In this document: positions 5,912 through 18,802 of the stretch, piece by piece | Position numbering within the stretch: position 1 is the first letter of the stretch | Layout of the letters: each line of letters begins with the position of its first letter | Assembly (NCBI GenBank): GCA_027335515.1 | Contig: DAHWHT010000201.1 | Span: 1-18,802 of the forward strand | DNA from: Clostridia bacterium | GTDB lineage: Bacteria; Bacillota_E; RBS10-35; JAJYVN01 | DNA: 18,802 nucleotides | Direction: 5' to 3' | Position numbers and translations under genes: made by a program | The notes under the pieces: generated by a model | The model's database searches: none | Told to the model about the DNA's origin: nothing | What the model saw: the letters and a program-made list of their open reading frames with translations, nothing else

Positions 5912-6472
5912 TCAGGCCTCGCGCGCCGCCGCGCCGCCCGCGACCACAAACTTGGCGCGCACGACGACCTGATCCCCCACCCGGATCTGGACGAGCACCA
6001 CGCGCCGCTCACGGCCCCCGGCGGGATCCCGGCGCCGCCGCAGCACCTCGGCCTTGGCCACCGGCGGACCCGCCAGCTCGGCGCGGCGAAAGCGCACCTG
6101 CACCAGGTCGACCGCGGCGGCGGACACGCCGCTGGCGGCCAGGGCCAGCCCCTGGGCGTCCGCAAACCAATCCGGATCCTGATAACCGCGGGGCTCCAGC
6201 ACGGCCACGGCTCGGGATCCGGGTTCCAGGTCCACGATGGCGCCGCGCACCACCCCGCCGCCGGGCCGCGCCAGGCCCCGCTCGGCCATGGACCGCACCC
6301 GTCGCCGCACCTCGGGGATCCCCAGGGCAACCCGGTCCAACCGCACCGTCGGCACGCTGACCTGGAACCGCAGGGCAAGCGCGGCATCCGTCAGCAACGG
6401 GTCTGCGGCGAGTGCCTCGCGCAACGCCCGTCGCCGGCGCTGCCGCCGCGCAGCGGGCGTCATCCCCGCCAT
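5912..6472 (-). CDS. fapR: fatty-acid and phospholipid biosynthesis repressor (FapR-like)
   Basis: FapR is the malonyl-CoA-responsive repressor of Bacillota lipid genes, with an N-terminal winged helix and a C-terminal hot-dog domain. The N-terminal helix-turn-helix is excellent: TDAALALRFQVSVPTVRLDR at about 28-47, followed by IPEVRRRVRSMAER, close to the family pattern. The C-terminal half keeps hot-dog features (AIVDLEPGSRAVAVLE, FADAQGLALA, VAKAEVL, VVVRAKF). Compared from memory with B. subtilis FapR, however, about nine residues are missing around the IARGHH segment, and the ligand-contacting Arg and Asn have no obvious counterparts. The protein is 186 aa, close to normal. The start is ATG at 6470-6472; a second ATG three codons on is possible. 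It opens the lipid operon, directly downstream of a promoter and candidate operator. Confidence 0.85.
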   Translation of the reverse strand: MAGMTPAARRQRRRRALREALAADPLLTDAALALRFQVSVPTVRLDRVALGIPEVRRRVRSMAERGLARPGGGVVRGAIVDLEPGSRAVAVLEPRGYQDPDWFADAQGLALAASGVSAAAVDLVQVRFRRAELAGPPVAKAEVLRRRRDPAGGRERRVVLVQIRVGDQVVVRAKFVVAGGAAAREA

Positions 6473-6496
6473 ACCCCCGCCCCCTCGCGGGAGACC

Positions 6497-6513
6497 TTGG
6501 CACCAGATATTAA
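6497..6513. promoter_or_regulatory. fapR box: candidate FapR operator
   Basis: The plus-strand sequence ttggcaccagatattaa agrees at 14 of 17 positions with the FapR inverted-repeat operator as I recall it (left arm TTAGTACC, right arm TACTAA). It lies in an AT-rich patch that stands out from the GC-rich surroundings. It sits about 20-40 nt downstream of the predicted transcription start and 24 nt upstream of the fapR start codon, a sensible place for autorepression. The match is an imperfect palindrome and the consensus was recalled, not looked up. Confidence 0.5.
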
Positions 6514-6526
6514 CACATACCCTTAA

Positions 6527-6544
6527 ACTGGCACCGCCGCCAGT
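6527..6544. repeat. perfect 6-bp inverted repeat overlapping the fapR -10 region
   Basis: The arms actggc (6527-6532) and gccagt (6539-6544) are exact reverse complements around a 6-bp spacer. The element overlaps the predicted -10 box and transcription start of the fapR operon. It could be a second operator or a 5'-end hairpin; no regulator can be named from the sequence. Confidence 0.4.
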
Positions 6545-6570
6545 ATAGTGGCGCGGGCACCAGCCCACAA
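6542..6570 (-). promoter_or_regulatory. predicted sigma-A promoter of the fapR-plsX-fab operon
   Basis: On the minus strand a -35-like TTGTGG (6565-6570) and a -10 TATACT (6542-6547, five of six consensus bases) are separated by exactly 17 bp (6548-6564). The predicted start is near 6535, about 60 nt before the fapR start codon. It lies right after the stop of the upstream CPBP gene, in an AT-rich patch, which supports an operon boundary here. Confidence 0.65.
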
Positions 6571-10000: not shown

Positions 10001-12229
10001 CTATTTCCGCTCGCGCTCCGGCCCCGTCCCGGCCGGGGGACGACCGGACGGCCGGGTGGTTCGGCCGCCGAATCCCGCCAGGGTGCCGAGCGTCGGACGC
10101 ATTCCGGATCGCGCCGCGCCACCGCGCACCGTATTCTCCACGCGCCGGCCACCCTCCCGCGGGGCCGCCGCACGTCCGACCCCGGCGTTGCCGCGCGCCG
10201 GCGCACCCACGCGCCGTCCGCCCTCCCGCGGGGTCGCCGCACGTCCACCTTCGGCGTTGCCGCGCGCCGGCGCACCCACGCGCCGTCCACCCTCCACACG
10301 CCGACCGCCCTCCCGCGGGGTCGCCGACCGTCCGCCTTCGGCGTTGCCGCGCGCCGGCGCACCCGCGCGCCGTCCACCCTCCACGCGCCGGCCACCCTCC
10401 CGCGGGGCCGCCGACCGCGGGCCGTCCCCGGGCCGATCCGGCTGGGCCAGGTGGAGCACCTCGGCCCGCCGGACCCGCACCGGCCGCGGCGGCCGCGCCG
10501 TCCGCTCCTGTCCCGCGACGCCCAAACCCGGAATCCGATTCAACACCGCGCCCAGCTCAAACCCCCGCGGTCGCGCGTAATCGCCCGGACACTGCCCCTG
10601 CCAGGGAGAACACGCCGCGAGCCCCAGGCGGTCCAGGTCGGCTTCCACCTCCCGCACCACCTCCGCCAGCGTGCGCTGCCCATCCGCATAGCGGGCGGCC
10701 AGGGGGACCAGGTCGGCCAGGGCGCGCAGTTGACCCGGCTCGGCCAGCTGGCCGACGGGCCCGAGGTCGACGTCGGCATCGCCCACGGACAGGGTGTGTT
10801 CCCCGCGCACCCGCACCCGCAGCCGCTCCCCCGCGTCCGGCGGCCCCCCCAGGGCGTCGGCGGCCAGCACGCGCGGCGCCGGCAGTTCGGGAGGCGGACC
10901 GGCGGGACGCGCCGGTGCTTCGAGGGCGGCCGCGACGGACCGCGCCTCGGCGGTGCGGTCCTCCGGTTGGAAGTCGCGCAGCCGCAGCACGCAATCCGCC
11001 TCGTCCAGGAACGACCCGGCCCCCCCGACCACCAGCACCGTCGAGATGCCCCGCTGTCGGTGCAGCCAGCGCACCCGCTGGACAAACGGAACGACCGGTT
11101 CCTCCTCATCCGGCACCAGGGCGCGCATGCGTGCGTCGCGGGCCATGAAGTTGGCGGCGCAGCGGTCCTCGTCCAGCAGCAGGCAGTCGGCGCCCAGTTC
11201 AACGGCCTCGCACAGGGCGGCGGCCTGGGATGTGCTGCCCGAGGCGGCCAGCGTTGTGAAGCGCCGCGTGTCGACCCCTCCCGGGAGGGGCCGGACGAAC
11301 GTGGAAATGTCCAGACCGGTCACGGCACGACCGTCCTCGCTGGCCACCCCGACGGCTCCGGCCCGCGTGATGCAAAGCTCCCGCCCGTCGCCCGCGACAT
11401 GGTCATACACCCCGCGCTCCAGGGCCCGCAGCAGGGTGGACTTTCCGTGGTACGCGCCACCGACGATCAGCACCACCCCGCAGGGGATGGCCAGTCCGCG
11501 CACCTCGCCACGGTGGGGCAGGCGCAGCGTCGCGGCGAGCGCCTCGGGCGCCACCAGCGGCTGCGCGGCCGGGCGCGGCAGCGGCGCATCGCTCGTGCCA
11601 CTTTCGCGTGCGAGGACGGCCCCGTCGGCGACGAAGGCGATCCAGCCGCGCCGCTCAAGTTCGGCCCGCACATACTGCTGATCCTCGCGCAGGTCCCCGT
11701 GCGCCGTCAGGGACGCCTCGTCGGCCGGCCCCTGGGGCAGCATGGCCGCGACCGCGGTCGGCAGCGCGACATCCAGGGCCGTCGCCGCCCGCTGGGCCTG
11801 GACGGCGCGGCGGTCGGCCGGCAGCGCACAGCCGAGCCGCACGACCACCTCACCACGTTCCACGATGACCGCGGACCGGGCCAAGACCTGCTGACCAGGC
11901 AGCGCCAGGCGCAGGCAGGCCCCCGGCAGCGGATCCTGACCCGGCCCCCCGGCCGCGCGGGCCACGGCGGCGGCAAACCGACGCAGCAGCCAGTCCTCGG
12001 TGGCCACCCGCCGCACCTCGCCGGCCACGTCCACCGGACGCAGGCCGCTGGCGGCCAGTGGCAGCCGCACGACGATGCGCGACGGCCCGGCGAAGGGATC
12101 CGCCTGAACGTGCGCGATGTCCAGGCGGAAGCGCTCGAAGGCGTAGGACCCGGCGAGGTCGCGGTAGGCGGGGTAGGGCCGGCCGTCGATGCGCGACAGG
12201 GTGGAACGGAGTTGCGCCCGTGGATACAT
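10001..12229 (-). CDS. ABC-class P-loop ATPase (PF09818-like) with a repetitive Arg/Gly-rich C-terminal tail
   Basis: The first 570 or so residues match the predicted ABC-class ATPase family: the N-terminal RIDGRPYPAYRDLAGSY region, Walker A GGAYHGKST at 257-265, the signature-like ASGSTSQAA near 329-337, and Walker B LLLDEDRCAANFM near 350-362. No membrane segments are present, so it is not a transporter subunit as seen. The cellular role of bacterial members is unknown; a trypanosome relative, MRB1590, is an RNA-editing factor. After about residue 575 comes a basic tail of roughly 165 residues made largely of PREGGRRVEGGRR and GAPARGNAEGGR units, which normal members (about 550-570 aa) lack. 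I chose the ATG at 12227-12229 by homology although its RBS is weak. A TTG at 12287-12289 overlaps the upstream stop codon but has no well-placed RBS. The 56-nt gap suggests co-transcription with the aldolase gene. Confidence 0.85.
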   Translation of the reverse strand: MYPRAQLRSTLSRIDGRPYPAYRDLAGSYAFERFRLDIAHVQADPFAGPSRIVVRLPLAASGLRPVDVAGEVRRVATEDWLLRRFAAAVARAAGGPGQDPLPGACLRLALPGQQVLARSAVIVERGEVVVRLGCALPADRRAVQAQRAATALDVALPTAVAAMLPQGPADEASLTAHGDLREDQQYVRAELERRGWIAFVADGAVLARESGTSDAPLPRPAAQPLVAPEALAATLRLPHRGEVRGLAIPCGVVLIVGGAYHGKSTLLRALERGVYDHVAGDGRELCITRAGAVGVASEDGRAVTGLDISTFVRPLPGGVDTRRFTTLAASGSTSQAAALCEAVELGADCLLLDEDRCAANFMARDARMRALVPDEEEPVVPFVQRVRWLHRQRGISTVLVVGGAGSFLDEADCVLRLRDFQPEDRTAEARSVAAALEAPARPAGPPPELPAPRVLAADALGGPPDAGERLRVRVRGEHTLSVGDADVDLGPVGQLAEPGQLRALADLVPLAARYADGQRTLAEVVREVEADLDRLGLAACSPWQGQCPGDYARPRGFELGAVLNRIPGLGVAGQERTARPPRPVRVRRAEVLHLAQPDRPGDGPRSAAPREGGRRVEGGRRAGAPARGNAEGGRSATPREGGRRVEGGRRVGAPARGNAEGGRAATPREGGRRVGAPARGNAGVGRAAAPREGGRRVENTVRGGAARSGMRPTLGTLAGFGGRTTRPSGRPPAGTGPERERK
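10148..10405 (-). repeat. 87-bp tandem repeats encoding the Arg/Gly-rich tail of the ATPase
   Basis: Two 87-bp units (10319-10405 and 10232-10318), a 69-bp unit (10163-10231) and the start of a fourth (10148-10162) follow head to tail and in frame. Each encodes a copy of PREGGRRV...GAPARGNA. The 69-bp unit lacks an 18-bp block (six codons, EGGRRV) that is itself an internal duplication in the longer units. Lengths are multiples of three throughout, so copy-number change would keep the frame. The copies differ at scattered bases, so they are not a very recent expansion. Confidence 0.9.
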
Positions 12230-12285
12230 TCTGATTGCCCGGCCAGACGGCCAGGCTCCCCCCCTTCGGCGGTGCGGCGCCCGCG

Positions 12286-13170
12286 TCAAAAACGGATGCA
12301 GGCCGCCTCCCGCAGGGCGTCGGCCAGTCGTGTCCCTTCAACCCGCGTCAGGGGTCGCAGGGGCAGGCGCGGGTCCCCCCCACAATAGCCCAGCAGGTCC
12401 ATCGCCCGCTTGATCCCGGCAATCCCCATCTGCCCCAGCGCCTGGCGGACCGGTTCCAGCCTGGACGCAAGAGCGGCCGCGGCAGCCGCGGGCCCCTCCA
12501 CGGCCAGGCGCCAGAGGTCGCAAACCTCAAACGGCAACGCGTCGGCCTCACCGAGCACAACCCCGGCGAGACCAAGGCGGGCGGCCTCCGGCAGCAACGC
12601 GCCGCGGCCGCACACCAAGCCCCATCCCGCCGGCACCGCAGCCGCAAACGCCGCCAGCCGCTCACGCTGCCCTTCGCTGTCCTTCATGCCGACGATGCGG
12701 GGGTGGGCGGCCAGCCGGGCCACGCTCTCCGGCGCCAGTCGGACCCCGGTGTGCTGGGGGATATGGTACACGAAGACCGGCAGCGGGGCGCGATCCGCCA
12801 CCGAGAGATAGAAATCGACCACCGCGGCCTCGTCCAGCAGCCGGGCGTAGTAGCGGGGGGGAAGCACCAGCACCGCGGCGGCACCGGCGGCCTGGGCGCG
12901 CTCCGCCATCTCGATCGTCCCGCGCACCGCCTCGCGGCCGATCTGGGCGATGACCGGGCGGCCTCCCGCCGCCCCCGCCACGGTTGCCACCACCCGTTCA
13001 CACTCGGCGTCCGTCAGCAGCGGCCCCTCACCGGTGGTGCCCGCCACCACATAGCCCGCCAGCGGCGACGCCCCATAACCCTGCAGGTTGCGTTCCAGGC
13101 CGTGGAGATCCAAGGCGCCATCGCCGTCGAACGGTGTCGTCAGCGGCGCGAACACCCCTCGGAGGATCAA
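12286..13170 (-). CDS. dihydrodipicolinate synthase-family aldolase (DapA/HOGA-like)
   Basis: This is a 294-residue TIM-barrel class I aldolase. The pyruvate-binding loop GTTGE is at 45-49, the general acid/base Tyr135 is in VYHIPQHTG, and the Schiff-base Lys163 is in GMKDS. In E. coli DapA the sequence after the tyrosine carries Arg138, which binds aspartate semialdehyde; the aligned residue here is His140. With the IPxxTG and GMKDSEG wording, this looks closer to 4-hydroxy-2-oxoglutarate or other 2-keto-acid aldolases than to lysine-pathway DapA, so I leave the symbol empty. The TTG start at 13168-13170 overlaps the tlyA stop by 4 nt (TTGA). A GTG five codons on is the alternative. Family assignment is sure; substrate is not. 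Confidence 0.88.
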   Translation of the reverse strand: MILRGVFAPLTTPFDGDGALDLHGLERNLQGYGASPLAGYVVAGTTGEGPLLTDAECERVVATVAGAAGGRPVIAQIGREAVRGTIEMAERAQAAGAAAVLVLPPRYYARLLDEAAVVDFYLSVADRAPLPVFVYHIPQHTGVRLAPESVARLAAHPRIVGMKDSEGQRERLAAFAAAVPAGWGLVCGRGALLPEAARLGLAGVVLGEADALPFEVCDLWRLAVEGPAAAAAALASRLEPVRQALGQMGIAGIKRAMDLLGYCGGDPRLPLRPLTRVEGTRLADALREAACIRF

Positions 13171-14075
13171 TCCGTCCGTCCGCCCCTTTCCGGCCCGCGC
13201 CACGCCTCGGCGACCGCGGCGGCGGCCAGGGCCTCCAGACCGTCGCCGCCGGCCGTCCCCGGGCGCAGCAGGGCGACAAACTCCCGATTGCCATCTGCGC
13301 CGCGCGGCGAGGCCGGCCGCAGATCCACCACCGGCCACCCCAGCCGCCCAAGGTCGGTGCCCACGGCGCACAGAACCTCAAGGTGCACCTTCGGGTCGCG
13401 AACGATGCCCCCGCGACCGACCTGGCGCGGCCCGGCCTCAAACTGCGGTTTGATCAGCACCACGGCCCACGGACGGTCCGCCCCCGGCGGAGCCAGTCGG
13501 GCCAGCGCCGCCGGCAGGACCTTCGCCAGGGAAATGAACGAGACATCGGCCACCAGGGCGTCGGCGGGCTCAGGGACGTGCTCGGGGCCCAGGTACCGCG
13601 CGTTCACCCGCTCCAGCACGACCACCCGCGGATCGCCCCGCAGCGCCCAGGCCAGCTGGCCGCGCCCGACGTCCACCGCATACACCCGCGCCGCGCCCCG
13701 CTGCAGCAGGCAATCGGTGAAACCGCCCGTCGACGCCCCCACGTCGATGCACACATACCCCGCCGGGTCGAGGCCGAAAGCGTCCAGGGCGCCCGCCAGC
13801 TTGAAGCCGCCGCGGCTGGCGTAGGGCGGGCGCGGGGCGCACACCTCCAGGGGCGCATCCACCGCCACGGCCTGGCCGGGCTTGGACGCCACCGCCGGGC
13901 CGATCCGCACCTGGCCGGCCAGCACCACGGCCGCGGCCTGGGCGCGGCTGGCACAAAGCCCCCGCTGCACCAACAGCTGGTCCAACCGCTGCCGCCCGGA
14001 GGCCCTGGCCGCGGGCGGTGGACCGACCGGCACGTCCGGTGTGCCACCGCCATCCGCCCGCCGGCCGCCGCTCAC
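13167..14075 (-). CDS. tlyA: TlyA-family rRNA 2'-O-methyltransferase (S4 plus FtsJ domains)
   Basis: TlyA enzymes methylate ribose 2'-OH of cytidines in 16S and/or 23S rRNA. The 302-residue protein has a Gly/Pro-rich leader, an S4 RNA-binding domain (about 28-85: QRLDQLLVQRGLCASRAQA), then an FtsJ-like Rossmann methyltransferase. SAM motif I reads DVGASTGGFTD at 111-121. The catalytic K-D-K-E set is visible as Lys92 (GGFKL), Asp177 (ADVSFISL), Lys209 (IKPQFE) and Glu265 (NREF). The GTG start forms a GTGA overlap with the dxs stop. The dxs-tlyA order matches the B. subtilis/B. halodurans yqxC position. The ahrC and recN genes that often follow are replaced here by an aldolase and an ATPase. 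Confidence 0.93.
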   Translation of the reverse strand: MSGGRRADGGGTPDVPVGPPPAARASGRQRLDQLLVQRGLCASRAQAAAVVLAGQVRIGPAVASKPGQAVAVDAPLEVCAPRPPYASRGGFKLAGALDAFGLDPAGYVCIDVGASTGGFTDCLLQRGAARVYAVDVGRGQLAWALRGDPRVVVLERVNARYLGPEHVPEPADALVADVSFISLAKVLPAALARLAPPGADRPWAVVLIKPQFEAGPRQVGRGGIVRDPKVHLEVLCAVGTDLGRLGWPVVDLRPASPRGADGNREFVALLRPGTAGGDGLEALAAAAVAEAWRGPERGGRTD

Positions 14076-16021
14076 GCCCCGACCCCGCGCCCGTCCAGCG
14101 CCGCCGGTGCGACCCGCAGGGTGCGGCCCAAAAACTGCGCCGCCGACCGGGCCAGGGATGCGGCGTCCAGGCCGTATTCCTCCAGCTGCGCCTCCCTTTT
14201 GCCATGGTCGATGAACTGGTCCGGCAGACCGTGGACCGCGACGCGCGCCGCCACCCGCCTTGCCGCCAGCAACTCCAGCACCGCGCTGCCGAAACCGCCC
14301 GCGGCGGCGTGCTCCTCGGCCGTCACCACCACCGAGCATTCCCCCGCCAGGCGGACGATCAACTCCGCATCCAACGGCTTGCAAAAACGGGCATTGACCA
14401 CCGTGGCCCGCACCCCGGCCGCCGCCAGCAGACGCCCCGCCTCCACGGCCCGGGCGCACATCGGACCGATCGCCAGCAGCAGGCAGTCGCGACCGTGTTC
14501 GGCAAGCACCTCGGCGCGTCCCCAGGGCAACGGTTCCGGGTCCGCGGGCAGCGCCACCCCGCTGCCCTCGCCGCGGGGGTAGCGCAGGGCGATCGGACCA
14601 CCCTCGTACGCCAGCGCCGTGACGACGGCCTGGGCCAGCTCCGCCTCATCCTTGGGCACGAGGATGGACATGTTCGGGATGTGGCGCAGGTAGGCGATGT
14701 CAAACACGCCCTGGTGCGTCGCCCCATCGTCTCCCACCAATCCGGCGCGGTCCAACCCGAACACGACGGGCAGACCCTGGTGCGCCACATCGTGCAGCAC
14801 CTGGTCGTACGCCCGCTGCAGGAAGGTCGAGTAGATCGCGACCACCGGCCGCAACCCGCCAAGCGCCAGCCCGGCGGCGAACGTCACCGCGTGCTGCTCG
14901 GCGATACCGACATCGAAGGCGCGGTCCGGGAAGCGCTCCGCGAAGCGATCCACACCGGTCCCGCCCGGCATGGCGGCGGTGATCGCCACCACGCGCGGAT
15001 CGCGCTGCGCGCAACGGACCAGCGTGTCGGCAAACACCTTGGTGTAGGTCGGCACGGCGGAAGGCGCCCGCAGGACCTTGCCGGTGCGGGGGTCGAAAGG
15101 CCCGCTCCAGGCGTGCGACGACTCCGGCTTGGCCTCCGTGGGCCCATACCCCTTGCCCTTGACCGTGACCACGTGGCAGAGGGTCGGACCGTCGACCTGG
15201 CGCGCCTGCCGCAGGATCTCCTGCACCTGGGCCAGGTTGTGTCCATCGACCGGCCCCATGTAGGTAAGGCCCAGCTCTTCAAAGAGCATCCCCGGCAGGA
15301 CCAGCTGTTTGAGGCTGTCTTTGACCCGCTCCGCCACCCGCACCATGCGCGGCCCGATCAGCGGCACGCGCTGCAGAATCCAGTGCAGGTCTTCGCGCAG
15401 ACGCAGGTAGCCCGGCCCGGTGCGCAGCCGCGCCAGATAGGTGGGCAGGGCTCCCACGTTGCGGGAGATGGACATGCCGTTGTCGTTGAGCACCACGACG
15501 AGGCGGGTTCGGCTCTGGCCGATGTTGTTCAGGGCCTCCAGCGCCATGCCGGCGGTCAGGGCCCCGTCGCCGACGACCGCGACCACCGCGTGGTCCTCGC
15601 CGCGCCGATCGCGGGCACAGGCCATACCGAGCGCCGCCGACAGGGAGGTGCCGGCGTGGCCGGCCTCCAGGTGATCGTGCGGGCTCTCGCGGCGCTTGCA
15701 AAACCCGGACAGGCCGCCCGGCTGGCGCAGGGTGCCGAAATCCGCGTAGCGGCCGGTCACCAGTTTGTGCCCGTACGCCTGATGGCCGGTATCCCAGACG
15801 ATGCGGTCGCGGGGACTCGCAAACACCGAGTGCAGGGCCAGCGTCAGTTCCACCGTGCCCAGGCTGGCGCCGAGATGGCCGCTGTTGCGCGCAACCGTCT
15901 CCACGATCGTCTGGCGGATTTCGGCGGCGAGTTCTGCCTGTTCGGCGGCGTTCATGCCCTGGAGGTCCTCAGGCCCGCGGATGCCCGGCAGCCACTTCAT
16001 GCCGGAGACGGTTTCGGGCAC
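14072..16021 (-). CDS. dxs: 1-deoxy-D-xylulose-5-phosphate synthase (Dxs)
   Basis: Dxs condenses pyruvate and glyceraldehyde-3-phosphate, the first committed step of the MEP isoprenoid pathway, with thiamine diphosphate. The 649-residue protein has GHLGASLGTVELTLALH near 48-64, DTGHQAYGHK, the ThDP motif beginning GDGALTAG (151-158) and ending NDNGMSIS, GPVDGHN, and the transketolase-type catalytic Glu375 in DVGIAEQH. The usual GAGHSSTS segment reads AGHAGTS. Homology begins at the ATG at 15998-16000 (642 aa), but that codon has no RBS; the GTG at 16019-16021 has AAGGGG 10 nt upstream, so I prefer it. It is 61 nt downstream of oapA and overlaps tlyA by 4 nt. Confidence 0.95.
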   Translation of the reverse strand: MPETVSGMKWLPGIRGPEDLQGMNAAEQAELAAEIRQTIVETVARNSGHLGASLGTVELTLALHSVFASPRDRIVWDTGHQAYGHKLVTGRYADFGTLRQPGGLSGFCKRRESPHDHLEAGHAGTSLSAALGMACARDRRGEDHAVVAVVGDGALTAGMALEALNNIGQSRTRLVVVLNDNGMSISRNVGALPTYLARLRTGPGYLRLREDLHWILQRVPLIGPRMVRVAERVKDSLKQLVLPGMLFEELGLTYMGPVDGHNLAQVQEILRQARQVDGPTLCHVVTVKGKGYGPTEAKPESSHAWSGPFDPRTGKVLRAPSAVPTYTKVFADTLVRCAQRDPRVVAITAAMPGGTGVDRFAERFPDRAFDVGIAEQHAVTFAAGLALGGLRPVVAIYSTFLQRAYDQVLHDVAHQGLPVVFGLDRAGLVGDDGATHQGVFDIAYLRHIPNMSILVPKDEAELAQAVVTALAYEGGPIALRYPRGEGSGVALPADPEPLPWGRAEVLAEHGRDCLLLAIGPMCARAVEAGRLLAAAGVRATVVNARFCKPLDAELIVRLAGECSVVVTAEEHAAAGGFGSAVLELLAARRVAARVAVHGLPDQFIDHGKREAQLEEYGLDAASLARSAAQFLGRTLRVAPAALDGRGVGA

Positions 16022-16082
16022 AAGCGCCACACCCCTTGCCGATCTGACCCTGCCACCGCAGCCCCCCGTCGGGCGGGCCGGC

Positions 16083-16652
16083 TCAGGCGCGGCGGCGGCG
16101 GGAAAACGGCGCCGCCAGCGCGTGGGCCACATAGCCCGCAGCGTACAGCACCACGTTGGCGTGGTCCAGGGCCACCCCCTTCAGGGTGCCCTTGGCGCCC
16201 ACCGTCAACGCGGCCACGGCCGCCACCGCCAGCGCGGCCGCCGCCGTCGGGGACCAGCCGTGCCGGTGCGCGGCGATCACCGCCCAACCGGCCGCCGCCG
16301 CACCACTCACCGTCCCGGCCACATCGCCCACGATATCCCCGGAGATGCCGGCGACGCGGTCCGCCCGATGTTTGAGCGCCAGGGCCGCCTTGGCCCCGGG
16401 CCGGCGCCGCGCAGCCATCGAATGCAGGGCCGGTTCGGTCGCCGCGGCGGCGGCGATGGCAAGCATGTCGCCCGCGGCGCCGATCAGGATGAGCAACACG
16501 ACCATGATCGTGGTGATGGTCAACCCTGGCTGGTGGAGCAACGACTCCGCGGGCAATGTGACGCCGACCGCCACCACGAGCGCAAGGCCGGCAAGCAGGG
16601 CGCCGCGCCGACCGTGGTGCCGCACGCTGCCGCGGCGAGCCCTGCCCTTCAC
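16083..16652 (-). CDS. oapA: small DUF21-like integral membrane protein, probable OLE-associated protein OapA
   Basis: This 189-residue protein has about four hydrophobic segments (roughly 18-34, 45-70, 112-128, 135-152), a further C-terminal one (163-182) and basic ends. The middle reads ATEPALHSMAARRRPGAKAA, then KHRADRVAGISGDIVGDVAG with a DxxxD pair (Asp106, Asp110), then GAKGTLKG. This pattern is like the DUF21/CNNM membrane domain, but without CBS domains. Short DUF21 proteins next to an OLE RNA and dxs are OapA, which binds OLE RNA at the membrane in B. halodurans. I chose the GTG at 16650-16652 because GGAGGG lies 6 nt upstream. The ATG at 16686-16688 coincides with the predicted transcription start and so is unlikely. 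Identity rests on a recalled motif pattern plus gene order. Confidence 0.75.
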   Translation of the reverse strand: MKGRARRGSVRHHGRRGALLAGLALVVAVGVTLPAESLLHQPGLTITTIMVVLLILIGAAGDMLAIAAAAATEPALHSMAARRRPGAKAALALKHRADRVAGISGDIVGDVAGTVSGAAAAGWAVIAAHRHGWSPTAAAALAVAAVAALTVGAKGTLKGVALDHANVVLYAAGYVAHALAAPFSRRRRA

Positions 16653-16693
16653 CGATTGCCCTCCAGCCTGCGAAAAACGAACGTCCATGAATT

Positions 16694-16722
16694 CCTATAA
16701 GGGTGGCAGCGCGGCGGGTCAA
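16694..16722 (-). promoter_or_regulatory. predicted sigma-A promoter for oapA-dxs-tlyA
   Basis: On the minus strand TTGACC (16717-16722, five of six consensus) and TATAGG (16694-16699, four of six) are separated by 17 bp (16700-16716). The predicted start is near 16687, giving a leader of about 35 nt with a GGAGGG site. It lies at or just past the 3' end of the OLE RNA, so oapA could be transcribed apart from the RNA. Confidence 0.6.
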
Positions 16723-16729
16723 TCTTGCG

Positions 16730-17330
16730 CCTTAGGTCCAGCCGGATTTCCCGCGCCCCCACCGCCCCGTCGCCGGGACGGCGGTTCCCCTTCACGGGGG
16801 CTCCGCCGGGTCGCCCACGGCGGTGCTGGATAGCCACTGAGGTCGCACCGCAATCCCCGCCGCGCCTCCGCACTCGGAACAGCCTAGGGGCTTTCCCCAG
16901 ACCGCAACCGCGTCCTAGCCTCTGTCGCAACCGCGATTTCGGCGAGCAGCCCCGCTGACGACGGGCCCATCGTCCACGGCGCCTCGCCCGCTCAAGGCGG
17001 GCTCTCGCTTCCTTCCCGGCCGCTTCAAGGCAGGCTACGCTGCACGCAGATGCCCCACATGCAGGTTACTACCCCGGGCCCCGACCCACGTCGGGCCGGA
17101 ACCTCGGGCCTCCGCGGGGAAAGGGTCCACGCCCGCATGCCATTGCGGCTCGCCCTCGCCCCTTAACTCCCAGCAACAACCCGCAGCTGGGCGCCGCAAG
17201 CCGCCACCAGGAACTTCATCGCTGTGCCATCCGCGGATTTTTAGGCCCGCCTTCGGACGCGTGCGGCAGACTAGAATACTGCGCCACCCCCACGGTGCAG
17301 TATACCATCCCCACCGGGCGGTGCGGGCCC
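16730..17330 (-). ncRNA. ole: OLE RNA (ornate, large, extremophilic noncoding RNA)
   Basis: About 600 nt between ispA and the DUF21 gene holds no credible protein gene, matching the usual OLE size (about 600 nt) and its position between ispA and oapA/dxs in extremophilic Bacillota. The minus strand is rich in local helices: 17276-17282 with 17297-17303 (7 bp); 17145-17153 with 17196-17204 (9 bp, one G-U) enclosing 17169-17174 with 17186-17191; 17077-17085 with 17090-17097; 16986-16991 with 16997-17002; 16957-16961 with 16970-16974; 16887-16890 with 16895-16898; and 16761-16766 with 16780-16785. In B. halodurans OLE RNA is abundant, membrane-bound through OapA, and linked to magnesium homeostasis, cold and alcohol tolerance. 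The ends are estimates. I did not match the primary consensus, so the call rests on synteny, size and structure. Confidence 0.85.
16903..16935 (-). repeat. 10-bp direct repeat inside the OLE RNA
   Basis: The sequence cgcaaccgcg (plus strand) occurs at 16903-16912 and again at 16926-16935, with a 23-nt period. The first copy is flanked on the other side by a GGGG-AAAG-CCCC minus-strand hairpin (16887-16898). The repeat may mark two similar structural elements in the 3' half of the RNA. Confidence 0.6.
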
Positions 17331-17333
17331 CGT

Positions 17334-18221
17334 TCACCAGCGGCGGGCAGCGGCATAACGCGCCAGGTCCGCCAGAACCGACGCCCGCGGCCCCAGGGGC
17401 TCCACCGCGGCCACCGCGGCCGCGGCGGCCTCCGCCGCCCGCGCCCGGGCGCCGTCCAGCCCCAGGCGTGAGACGGCCGTGACCTTGCCGCCGCGCGCGT
17501 CGCTGCCGGGGGTCTTGCCCCAGGCGGCATCGGAGGCGGTCACATCCAGGATGTCGTCGGTGATCTGGAACGCCGCGCCCAGCCCCTCGCCGCAGGCGGC
17601 GAGTCGGGCGAAGGTGGCGGCATCGGCGCCGGCCAAACGGGCCCCGATTTGCACCGAGGCCCCCAGGAGGGCGCCGGTCTTCATGGCCTGCAGCCGCCAC
17701 AGGCCGGCGTCGTCGGGCGGTTCGACCTCCGCGGCGAGGTCCAGGGCCTGGCCGCCGCACATGCCGGCGGCCCCGGCCGCCTGCCCAAGGGTCGCCACGG
17801 CCGCGAGTTGGTCCTCCGGACGCACCCCGGGCAGCGGCTGGGCGAGCGAGGCGAACGCCAGGGCCTGCAGCGCGTCCCCGGCGAGGATCGCGACCGCCTC
17901 CCCAAAGGCGCGGTGGCAGGCGGGCCGGCCCCGCCGCAGTTCCGCGTCGTCCATCGCGGGCAGGTCGTCATGCACCAGCGAGTAGGCGTGGATGAGCTCC
18001 ACGGCGCAGGCGGCCGGCAGCAGGCGCGTCGGGGCATCGACGGCGCCGCATGCCTCGGCGGCGGCCAAACAGAGCGCCGGGCGCAGCCGCTTGCCCCCAC
18101 CCAGCACGCTGTGGCGCATCGCCGCGGCCAGGTCTGCGGGAACCCCCGGGTCGGCAAGCCGCTCGCGCAGGTACGGCTCGCAGACGGCCGCCACCTCCGC
18201 CAGAAACGCAGGCGGTTTCAC
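17334..18221 (-). CDS. ispA: polyprenyl synthetase, probable farnesyl/geranylgeranyl diphosphate synthase (IspA)
   Basis: This enzyme joins IPP to allylic diphosphates to make C15-C20 prenyl diphosphates. The 295-residue all-helical protein has GGKRLRP at 42-48, the first aspartate-rich motif DDLPAMD at 85-91, GQALD at 157-161, KTG at 181-183 and the second motif DDILD at 222-226. The position after xseA-xseB and upstream of dxs is the standard ispA context. The GTG start overlaps the xseB stop by 4 nt (GTGA), and AAGGA lies 8 nt upstream. Exact product chain length cannot be told from the sequence, although two small residues and a Tyr (AYSLVHDD) precede the first motif. Confidence 0.94.
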   Translation of the reverse strand: MKPPAFLAEVAAVCEPYLRERLADPGVPADLAAAMRHSVLGGGKRLRPALCLAAAEACGAVDAPTRLLPAACAVELIHAYSLVHDDLPAMDDAELRRGRPACHRAFGEAVAILAGDALQALAFASLAQPLPGVRPEDQLAAVATLGQAAGAAGMCGGQALDLAAEVEPPDDAGLWRLQAMKTGALLGASVQIGARLAGADAATFARLAACGEGLGAAFQITDDILDVTASDAAWGKTPGSDARGGKVTAVSRLGLDGARARAAEAAAAAVAAVEPLGPRASVLADLARYAAARRW

Positions 18222-18505
18222 GCGCCGGGTCCTTCGAGCGCCGCCAGCACGGGGTTACCCTCACCGTCCAGGGTCAGGACGCGCAGGCGCGCCTCCGCCC
18301 CGTCGAGTTGCCCGCCGCACAGGCGCACCAGCGCCACCCCCCGCTCATACAGCCGCAGCGCCTCGTCCAGGCCCAGCGCCCCGGTTTCCAGGTCGCGCAC
18401 AATCCGCTCCAGTTCGGCCATCGCCGCTTCAAAACTCGGGTCCTCCGGCCGTCCGTCCGGCTGCTCCGCCTCGGCCACGCGCCCGCCACCTCCCTCCACG
18501 CTCAT
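18218..18505 (-). CDS. xseB: exodeoxyribonuclease VII small subunit (XseB)
   Basis: XseB assembles with XseA to form exonuclease VII, which degrades single-stranded DNA. The 95-residue reading has the family core SFEAAMAELERIVRDLETGALGLDEALRLYERG at about 24-56, followed by RLCGGQLDGAEARLRVL. The ATG at 18503-18505 forms an ATGA overlap with the xseA stop. A GTG nine codons later has GGGAGG about 10 nt upstream and would give a more usual 86 residues, so the start is uncertain. It overlaps ispA by 4 nt. Confidence 0.93.
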   Translation of the reverse strand: MSVEGGGGRVAEAEQPDGRPEDPSFEAAMAELERIVRDLETGALGLDEALRLYERGVALVRLCGGQLDGAEARLRVLTLDGEGNPVLAALEGPGA

Positions 18506-18802
18506 GGCACCCATGCCGGGCCGTGCTCCTGGACGCGGGCCCACAGCCGCCCCTCCTCCACCAGCACCTCAATCCGGTCCCCCGCCGCGGCCTGCGCGGG
18601 CCGCCGCACCACCGTGCCGTCGGCCAGGCGGCAGACGGCGTAGCCGCGCGACAACACCGCCAGCGGCGACAGGGCGGCCAACCGACCGGCGGCGTGGCGC
18701 CAAACGGATCGGCCTTCGGCGGCGCGGGCCTGCCCGCCGGCCGCCAGCCGCACCTGCAGATGGACCCAGCGCGTGCGTTGCGCCAGGAAGGCGGCCTCCG
18801 GC
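18502..18802 (-). CDS. xseA: exodeoxyribonuclease VII large subunit (XseA), C-terminal end only
   Basis: The last 100 or so residues of XseA are visible; the rest lies beyond the right edge. After a charged helical stretch (FLAQRTRWVHLQVRLAAGG), the typical C-terminal ending is present: LSPLAVLSRGYAVCRLADGTVVR, then a GDRIEVLVEEGRLWARV strand pair, as in exonuclease VII large subunits. Its stop overlaps the xseB start. No break is seen in the part present. Confidence 0.92.
   Translation of the reverse strand, partial: PEAAFLAQRTRWVHLQVRLAAGGQARAAEGRSVWRHAAGRLAALSPLAVLSRGYAVCRLADGTVVRRPAQAAAGDRIEVLVEEGRLWARVQEHGPAWVP

Follow-up and report, generated by a model that had tools for sequence, protein, structure and literature searches.

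A complete OLE RNA-OapA locus in a high-GC Bacillota lineage whose nearest genomes lack detectable bS21

Few structured bacterial RNAs are larger than OLE, which has no known biochemical task. Here we describe an OLE locus on an 18,802-nucleotide stretch of DNA from a Clostridia bacterium (GenBank assembly GCA_027335515.1, contig DAHWHT010000201.1), called the window below; all of its features given here lie on the minus strand. A search with cmscan identified a full-length OLE RNA gene (Rfam RF01071) at 16687-17303, scoring 388.6 bits (gathering score 50; E = 3.5e-111) in an untruncated match to model positions 1-616 of 616. This is far beyond chance, and RF01071 was the sole Rfam family at its gathering score within the whole window. 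The match (17303-16687) fills the 645-nucleotide gap separating ispA, which ends at 17334, from oapA, the gene for OLE-associated protein A (OapA), which starts at 16688. A sequence-only reading of the window had suspected OLE RNA in a large gap between ispA and a gene for a small membrane protein, followed by dxs and tlyA; both the RNA and the gap proved real, and protein family models confirmed the neighbours. NCBIfam recognised xseB (18218-18544; E = 1.2e-19), ispA for farnesyl diphosphate synthase (17334-18221; E = 2.2e-86), dxs (14072-16132; E = 1.1e-245) and tlyA (13167-14459; E = 3.8e-62), with Pfam in agreement. The intervals for dxs and tlyA are those of the longest open reading frames (ORFs): the true dxs start probably lies downstream of the oapA stop, and the S4 domain of TlyA begins at residue 157. 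As in other members of the OLE family, oapA (16083-16688) follows the RNA and isoprenoid genes stand on either side. Eight mechanically called ORFs of at least 60 amino acids cross the gap (overlapping 16690-17330), uncurated candidates that are to be expected because the window has a GC content of 72.7%. This composition and the nearest named records, two Bacillota bacterium metagenome-assembled genomes (FK2.bin46 and FK2.bin21) with OLE just upstream of oapA in both, bear out the earlier assignment to a high-GC member of the Bacillota.

The internal helices of the RNA draw their support from the covariance-model score, whereas the helix that closes the molecule is backed by compensatory change. 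Its 5' strand (17283-17290) pairs with 16707-16700, and its 3' strand (16700-16707) accordingly with 17290-17283. Across 51 OLE loci (two incomplete ones, L053 and L054, were excluded here and from the promoter counts), 396 of 408 cells were paired (97.1%), as against 30-51% with partners slid by -2 to +3 and a mean of 78.2% (maximum 82.4%) over 1000 row shuffles. The Rfam structure line leaves both strands unpaired, so the pairing was not built into the alignment. Compensatory changes accompany this pairing of the two ends of OLE, and the helix is probably the P1 named within OLE domain 2 in the literature (PMC12265935).

Just upstream of the closing helix lies a predicted extended -10 promoter element, TGGTATACT (17299-17307), from which transcription would start two bases ahead of the helix, near 17292. 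We searched the 91 nucleotides ending beside the closing helix for TGn-TATAAT with no more than one hexamer mismatch and, with one short locus set aside, found such elements in 31 of 50 OLE loci, compared with a mean of 1.06 and a maximum of 5 in 200 shuffles. Their distance from the anchor varies, being 17 nucleotides in the window and 84 in its nearest relative, locus L001. A scan for two-box promoters found none, so that a -35 element would be poor or absent. The OLE cluster of Halalkalibacterium halodurans is reported as one polycistronic transcript, and a promoter of OLE's own would therefore be an additional one. No publication on OLE promoters stood among those listed by our literature search, as far as the listed entries tell.

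The adjacent protein counts 201 amino acids from its ATG, and not 189 as first read. It contains a DIVGD motif (D118, D122), an instance of the DxxxD motif found in 46 of 46 OapAs, and D74, D118, D122, K166 and K170 were invariant in the same 46 proteins. The DxxxD motif, absent from CNNM domains, and a lost proline are mentioned for OapA in the literature (PMC11332333). The model that the sequence-only reading had proposed as a check, PF01595 (DUF21/CNNM), fell short on this protein (9.6 bits, E = 0.88; cut-off 28.4 bits), and we rejected it as proof of OapA; used against an OapA alignment, it matched 18 of 26 members at E up to 1, the best at 2.9e-6. Searches of PDB sequences with the window protein and with the OapA alignment profile returned no convincing CNNM match. 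The predicted structure has four long helices, its best structural matches were all CNNM, and it would adopt the CNNM transmembrane fold. Taken together, synteny, the DxxxD motif, co-occurrence with OLE and fold support the identification as OapA that had been made from the sequence. By identity, the window OapA is nearest to those of genomes G001 (74%), G006 (71%), G004 (59%) and G002 (51%), the other 21 rows of the alignment reaching at most 37%, and phmmer E-values over all loci agree with this choice.

Co-occurrence was counted in 61 genomes selected for relatedness to G001, which carries L001; their kinship and completeness are not given. OLE was found in 53 of them, including a contig-end fragment in G008, and OapA in 51, namely in 51 of the 53 with OLE and 0 of the 8 without. 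The two OLE genomes without OapA are G008 and G013, in both of which OLE is incomplete at a contig end. Seven genomes (G007, G008, G009, G011, G012, G039 and G057) have OLE directly before dxs and no oapA there, while oapA lies elsewhere in the genome, not beside OLE, in G007, G009, G011, G012, G039 and G057. The loci with OLE straight before dxs are L009, L012, L017, L021, L029, L041 and L110, the ispA side of the last not being assembled. Among the genomes without OLE, G003, G005, G010 and G033 have no full dxs match; the site was therefore probably not assembled, and they carry little weight. Clean empty sites, in which ispA abuts dxs with neither OLE nor oapA, occur in G019, G044 and G060. 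The genomes of the empty-site loci L106, L107 and L108 encode a full CNNM protein, and in G025 an ORF of about 151 codons (L109, 3434-3889) takes the place of OLE and oapA between ispA and dxs.

Full CNNM domains (>100 bits) were present in 4 of the 4 OLE-less genomes with the site assembled, as opposed to 7 of the 53 OLE genomes. Fisher's test gave P = 0.047 for 7/52 versus 4/9 and P = 0.004 for 7/52 versus 4/5, G008 being counted as OLE-less in both. Three of the four OLE-less genomes are not independent, as their CNNM domains are 69-70% alike. The trend, drawn from few independent lineages, is in line with the anticorrelation published for OLE and MpfA (PMC11332333).

The dimer contacts described for OLE are present in the window by sequence. 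In published work, the A-rich P4 loop is a dimer contact, the P5.1 loop kisses the P6.1 loop (PMC12265935) and the palindromic P9 loop is a dimer contact with a palindrome switch (PMC12286853). Sequence and covariance-model alignment locate the A-rich P4 loop region, CCUAAAAAUCC, at 17235-17245. The alignment also yields a GCCCA loop (GCCCAG, 17187-17192) and a UGGC loop (CAAUGGCAUG, 17136-17145), which by their placement would be those of P5.1 and P6.1. The P9 terminal loop, GGGCCC (16963-16968), is palindromic, with GGCC in the window where L002 has GAUC, and would form a P9-P9 kissing contact. The loop GGCGAC (16769-16774) matches the consensus and likely caps P13, the published site of OapB (PMC12265935).

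Relative to the Rfam consensus, the P9 arm of the window contains an insertion predicted to fold into an extra hairpin, GCCCGC-CUUGA-GCGGGC (16986-17002). In the 53 rows this arm could be read, its anchors being found, 31 times. A hairpin occupies the matching place in G001, G004 and G006, and none does in G002; the arms in the window, G001 and G004 have a common CCCGC/GCGGG core and differ outside it, the hairpin of G006 is longer and different, and L011 has an extra P9 hairpin of its own. Pairing is kept, with thin compensatory evidence because of the shared core. The OLE of L001 (1303-1990) has a 20-nucleotide P9 insertion forming a palindromic hairpin, and 69 nucleotides after model position about 487, where the model has 6.

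At the k-turn, base 84 (window position 17222) is a G and faces another G at 145. Of 51 loci, 3 lacked the anchor, and among the other 48 the first partner was missing in 8 and the second in 1. A or G stands at position 84 in 15 of 48, so the published 84-145 pair is often absent: position 84 pairs with 145 in 26 of 40 loci and with J6/7 in 30 of 47. Position 85 pairs with 144 in 37 of 40 and with J6/7 in 46 of 47. These counts favour neither of the two published k-turns.

The place of OapB is presumably between map and infA, genes that we, like rpoC and rpsL, recognised by eye. An OapB-like ORF stands there in 8 of 8 genomes examined (seven by eye, G006 by profile), and the best PDB match of the one in G001 is OLE-associated protein B (E = 8.9e-6). 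The KOW model PF00467 was tried as an OapB finder and dropped, its two matches in each of eight genomes being taken as ribosomal L24 and NusG by ORF size and place. An L7Ae-like ORF between rpoC and rpsL, the candidate OapC, was found in G001, G002, G004 and G006, and that of G002 matches YbxF (E = 1.2e-14). OapB-like and OapC-like genes are present in the four genomes nearest to the window by OapA. The protein bS21 was detected in 48 of the 61 genomes; a match is missing in 10 of 52 OLE genomes (G008 not counted), some of which may be incomplete. In G001-G006, which comprise the four nearest by OapA and among whose loci are L001, L002, L046 and L049, neither PF01165 nor TIGR00030 found it (0 of 6), while the second bS21 model was positive in 3 of 3 control genomes (G007, G010, G013). 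P6 is where bS21 binds the OLE of H. halodurans, and cells that lose either the protein or this site show growth defects in cold and ethanol (PMC12054373). The lineage of the window likely does without this contact. The anti-Shine-Dalgarno mimic CCUCC, considered as a marker of bS21 binding, occurs in only 5 of 51 loci and was uninformative.

How OapA relates to CNNM transporters was further approached by profile comparison. The 53 OapAs and the 11 CNNM domains of the searched genomes matched at E = 7.8e-5 (probability 61.5), and replacing the former by OapA alignment A1 left the register unchanged (E = 2e-4, probability 46.5). With profile columns translated by us to MtCorB numbering, D74 of OapA pairs with the Ser25 position, K166 with an invariant Glu, and K170 and A173 with a Lys and an Ala that are likewise invariant. 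The phmmer alignment (E = 0.36) sets D74 on Ser25, D122 on Ser71 and K166 on the residue after Glu111; a pi-bulge could account for the one-residue shift at K166. MtCorB holds its Mg2+ ion through Ser21, Ser25, Ser71 and Glu111 together with backbone carbonyls. Transport by TtCorB fell when residues near the conserved turn were mutated, its Glu, Pro and Lys among them, and rose when the Ser and Asn residues of the Mg2+ site were (PMC8242095). Glu and Pro of this pi-helical turn are invariant in the 11 CNNM domains, and the window OapA has Lys (Ala in the phmmer alignment) for the Glu and Leu for the Pro. Our reading is that charged residues remain in the pocket, with an acid now sitting on the first CNNM helix and a lysine in or next to the acid's former place, and that OapA would not bind Mg2+ the CNNM way. 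As the invariant Asp and Lys align with two metal ligands, OapA would not move Mg2+ by CNNM or MpfA chemistry. Alternatively, K166 and K170 could belong to the conserved positive residues on the cytoplasmic face of OapA that are thought to contact RNA (PMC12265935, review). The available portion of PMC11332333 has no mention of a Lys at the metal site, and the entries listed by our literature search included no publication on an Asp/Lys swap in OapA.

We are highly confident that the window holds a full-length OLE gene followed by a gene with the hallmarks of oapA, the RNA likely having its own extended -10 promoter and being bound by OapA in a dimeric membrane particle that would help the cell withstand stress and divalent metals. 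Established here are the RNA, compensatory change in its closing helix, the order of the genes, the OLE-OapA co-occurrence and the OapB-like and OapC-like genes of the four nearest genomes; promoter and CNNM-like fold are predictions. For H. halodurans OapA, binding of OLE and its carriage to the membrane are published (PMC12265935). Extrapolating from published H. halodurans work and cryo-EM dimers, the window RNA would dimerise via its P4, P5.1/P6.1 and P9 loops, bind OapB at P13 and OapC at the k-turn besides OapA, reside at the membrane and act under cold, alcohol, Mg2+ and carbon-source stress.

Three other explanations were weighed against this one. The stretch might mainly be a long structured 5' leader, a cis element or riboswitch regulating oapA, with no separate RNA: the OLE match ends on the second base of the oapA start codon, and between closing helix and ATG, four bases before the latter, stands an AGGA ribosome-binding site. 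The retention of OLE straight before dxs, with no oapA there, in seven genomes and the compensatory pairing of its ends, as in a self-contained RNA, nevertheless make such a leader very unlikely. We give still less credence to OapA being an ordinary CNNM/DUF21 magnesium transporter that lies beside OLE by chance. The predicted CNNM-like fold and the weak profile match would fit this; however, OapA accompanies OLE also where the two genes are unlinked, and genomes that have ispA and dxs but no OLE have no OapA either. Moreover, Glu and Pro, invariant in the 11 CNNM domains, are missing from OapA, DxxxD is present, and full CNNM proteins trend in the direction opposite to OLE.

The least probable alternative is that OLE has decayed here and no longer functions, part of the particle having been lost from the lineage. 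It would be in line with the absence of bS21 matches from the six first-listed genomes, the four nearest among them, and with the G-G mismatch at k-turn pair 84-145. Against decay stand the full-length high-scoring match, the intact closing helix, an OapA with all its invariant residues and the retention of OLE in all four nearest genomes; as to the mismatch, 84 and 145 are unpaired in 14 of 40 loci, and a U84A mutant retained function in vivo in H. halodurans (PMC9723947).

The locus is thus a real, complete OLE-OapA case of a known family, and what is new is the high-GC lineage whose nearest genomes lack detectable bS21. Such a lineage keeps OLE, OapA and, in the nearest relatives, OapB and OapC, and since these persist, the bS21 contact is probably dispensable there. 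Besides, the self-pairing ends together with the promoter delimit the transcript for cloning. More tentatively, and in our estimate rather unlikely as a whole, OapA may be a CNNM fold with a charge-swapped site (Asp74/Lys166 for Ser25/Glu111), which would make the OLE particle a membrane gate or sensor locked by an ion pair and opened by OLE RNA, instead of an RNA-dressed Mg2+ pump, run without bS21 in the high-GC lineage. If so, exchanging the residues both ways (OapA to Ser/Glu, MpfA to Asp/Lys) would be expected to shift one device towards the other. The aligned Asp/Lys swap in any case opens the question of whether OapA transports metal to simple mutagenesis.

Elsewhere in the window, an ABC-class ATPase (PF09818, PF20446, MRB1590_C; 10001-12289) has a tail of tandem repeats past its last Pfam domain, with periods of 69 and 87 bases at 10138-10417. 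The ORF beside plsX (5912-6568) has no Pfam match at E 0.001, and we take it to be FapR-like from its position.

Compared with the CNNM/CorB/CorC/MpfA transporters, the window OapA had no CBS or CorC domain in a Pfam scan, its model has an extra N-terminal helix, and at the Mg2+ site it shows Asp for Ser25, Lys at or next to Glu111 and loss of the Pro. While below the Pfam CNNM cut-off, it resembles OapA in standing directly downstream of OLE and in its DxxxD motif, four long helices and missing CNNM proline, these being the features compared. The window RNA differs from the OLE RNAs of H. halodurans and Clostridium acetobutylicum in its GC content of 69%, the extra P9-arm hairpin and the lack, on the 3' side of P6, of the anti-Shine-Dalgarno mimic CCUCC. 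With both it shares the full-length consensus, the P4 A-loop, the P5.1 and P6.1 loops, the palindromic P9 loop, a P13-like hairpin and the position beside ispA and oapA.
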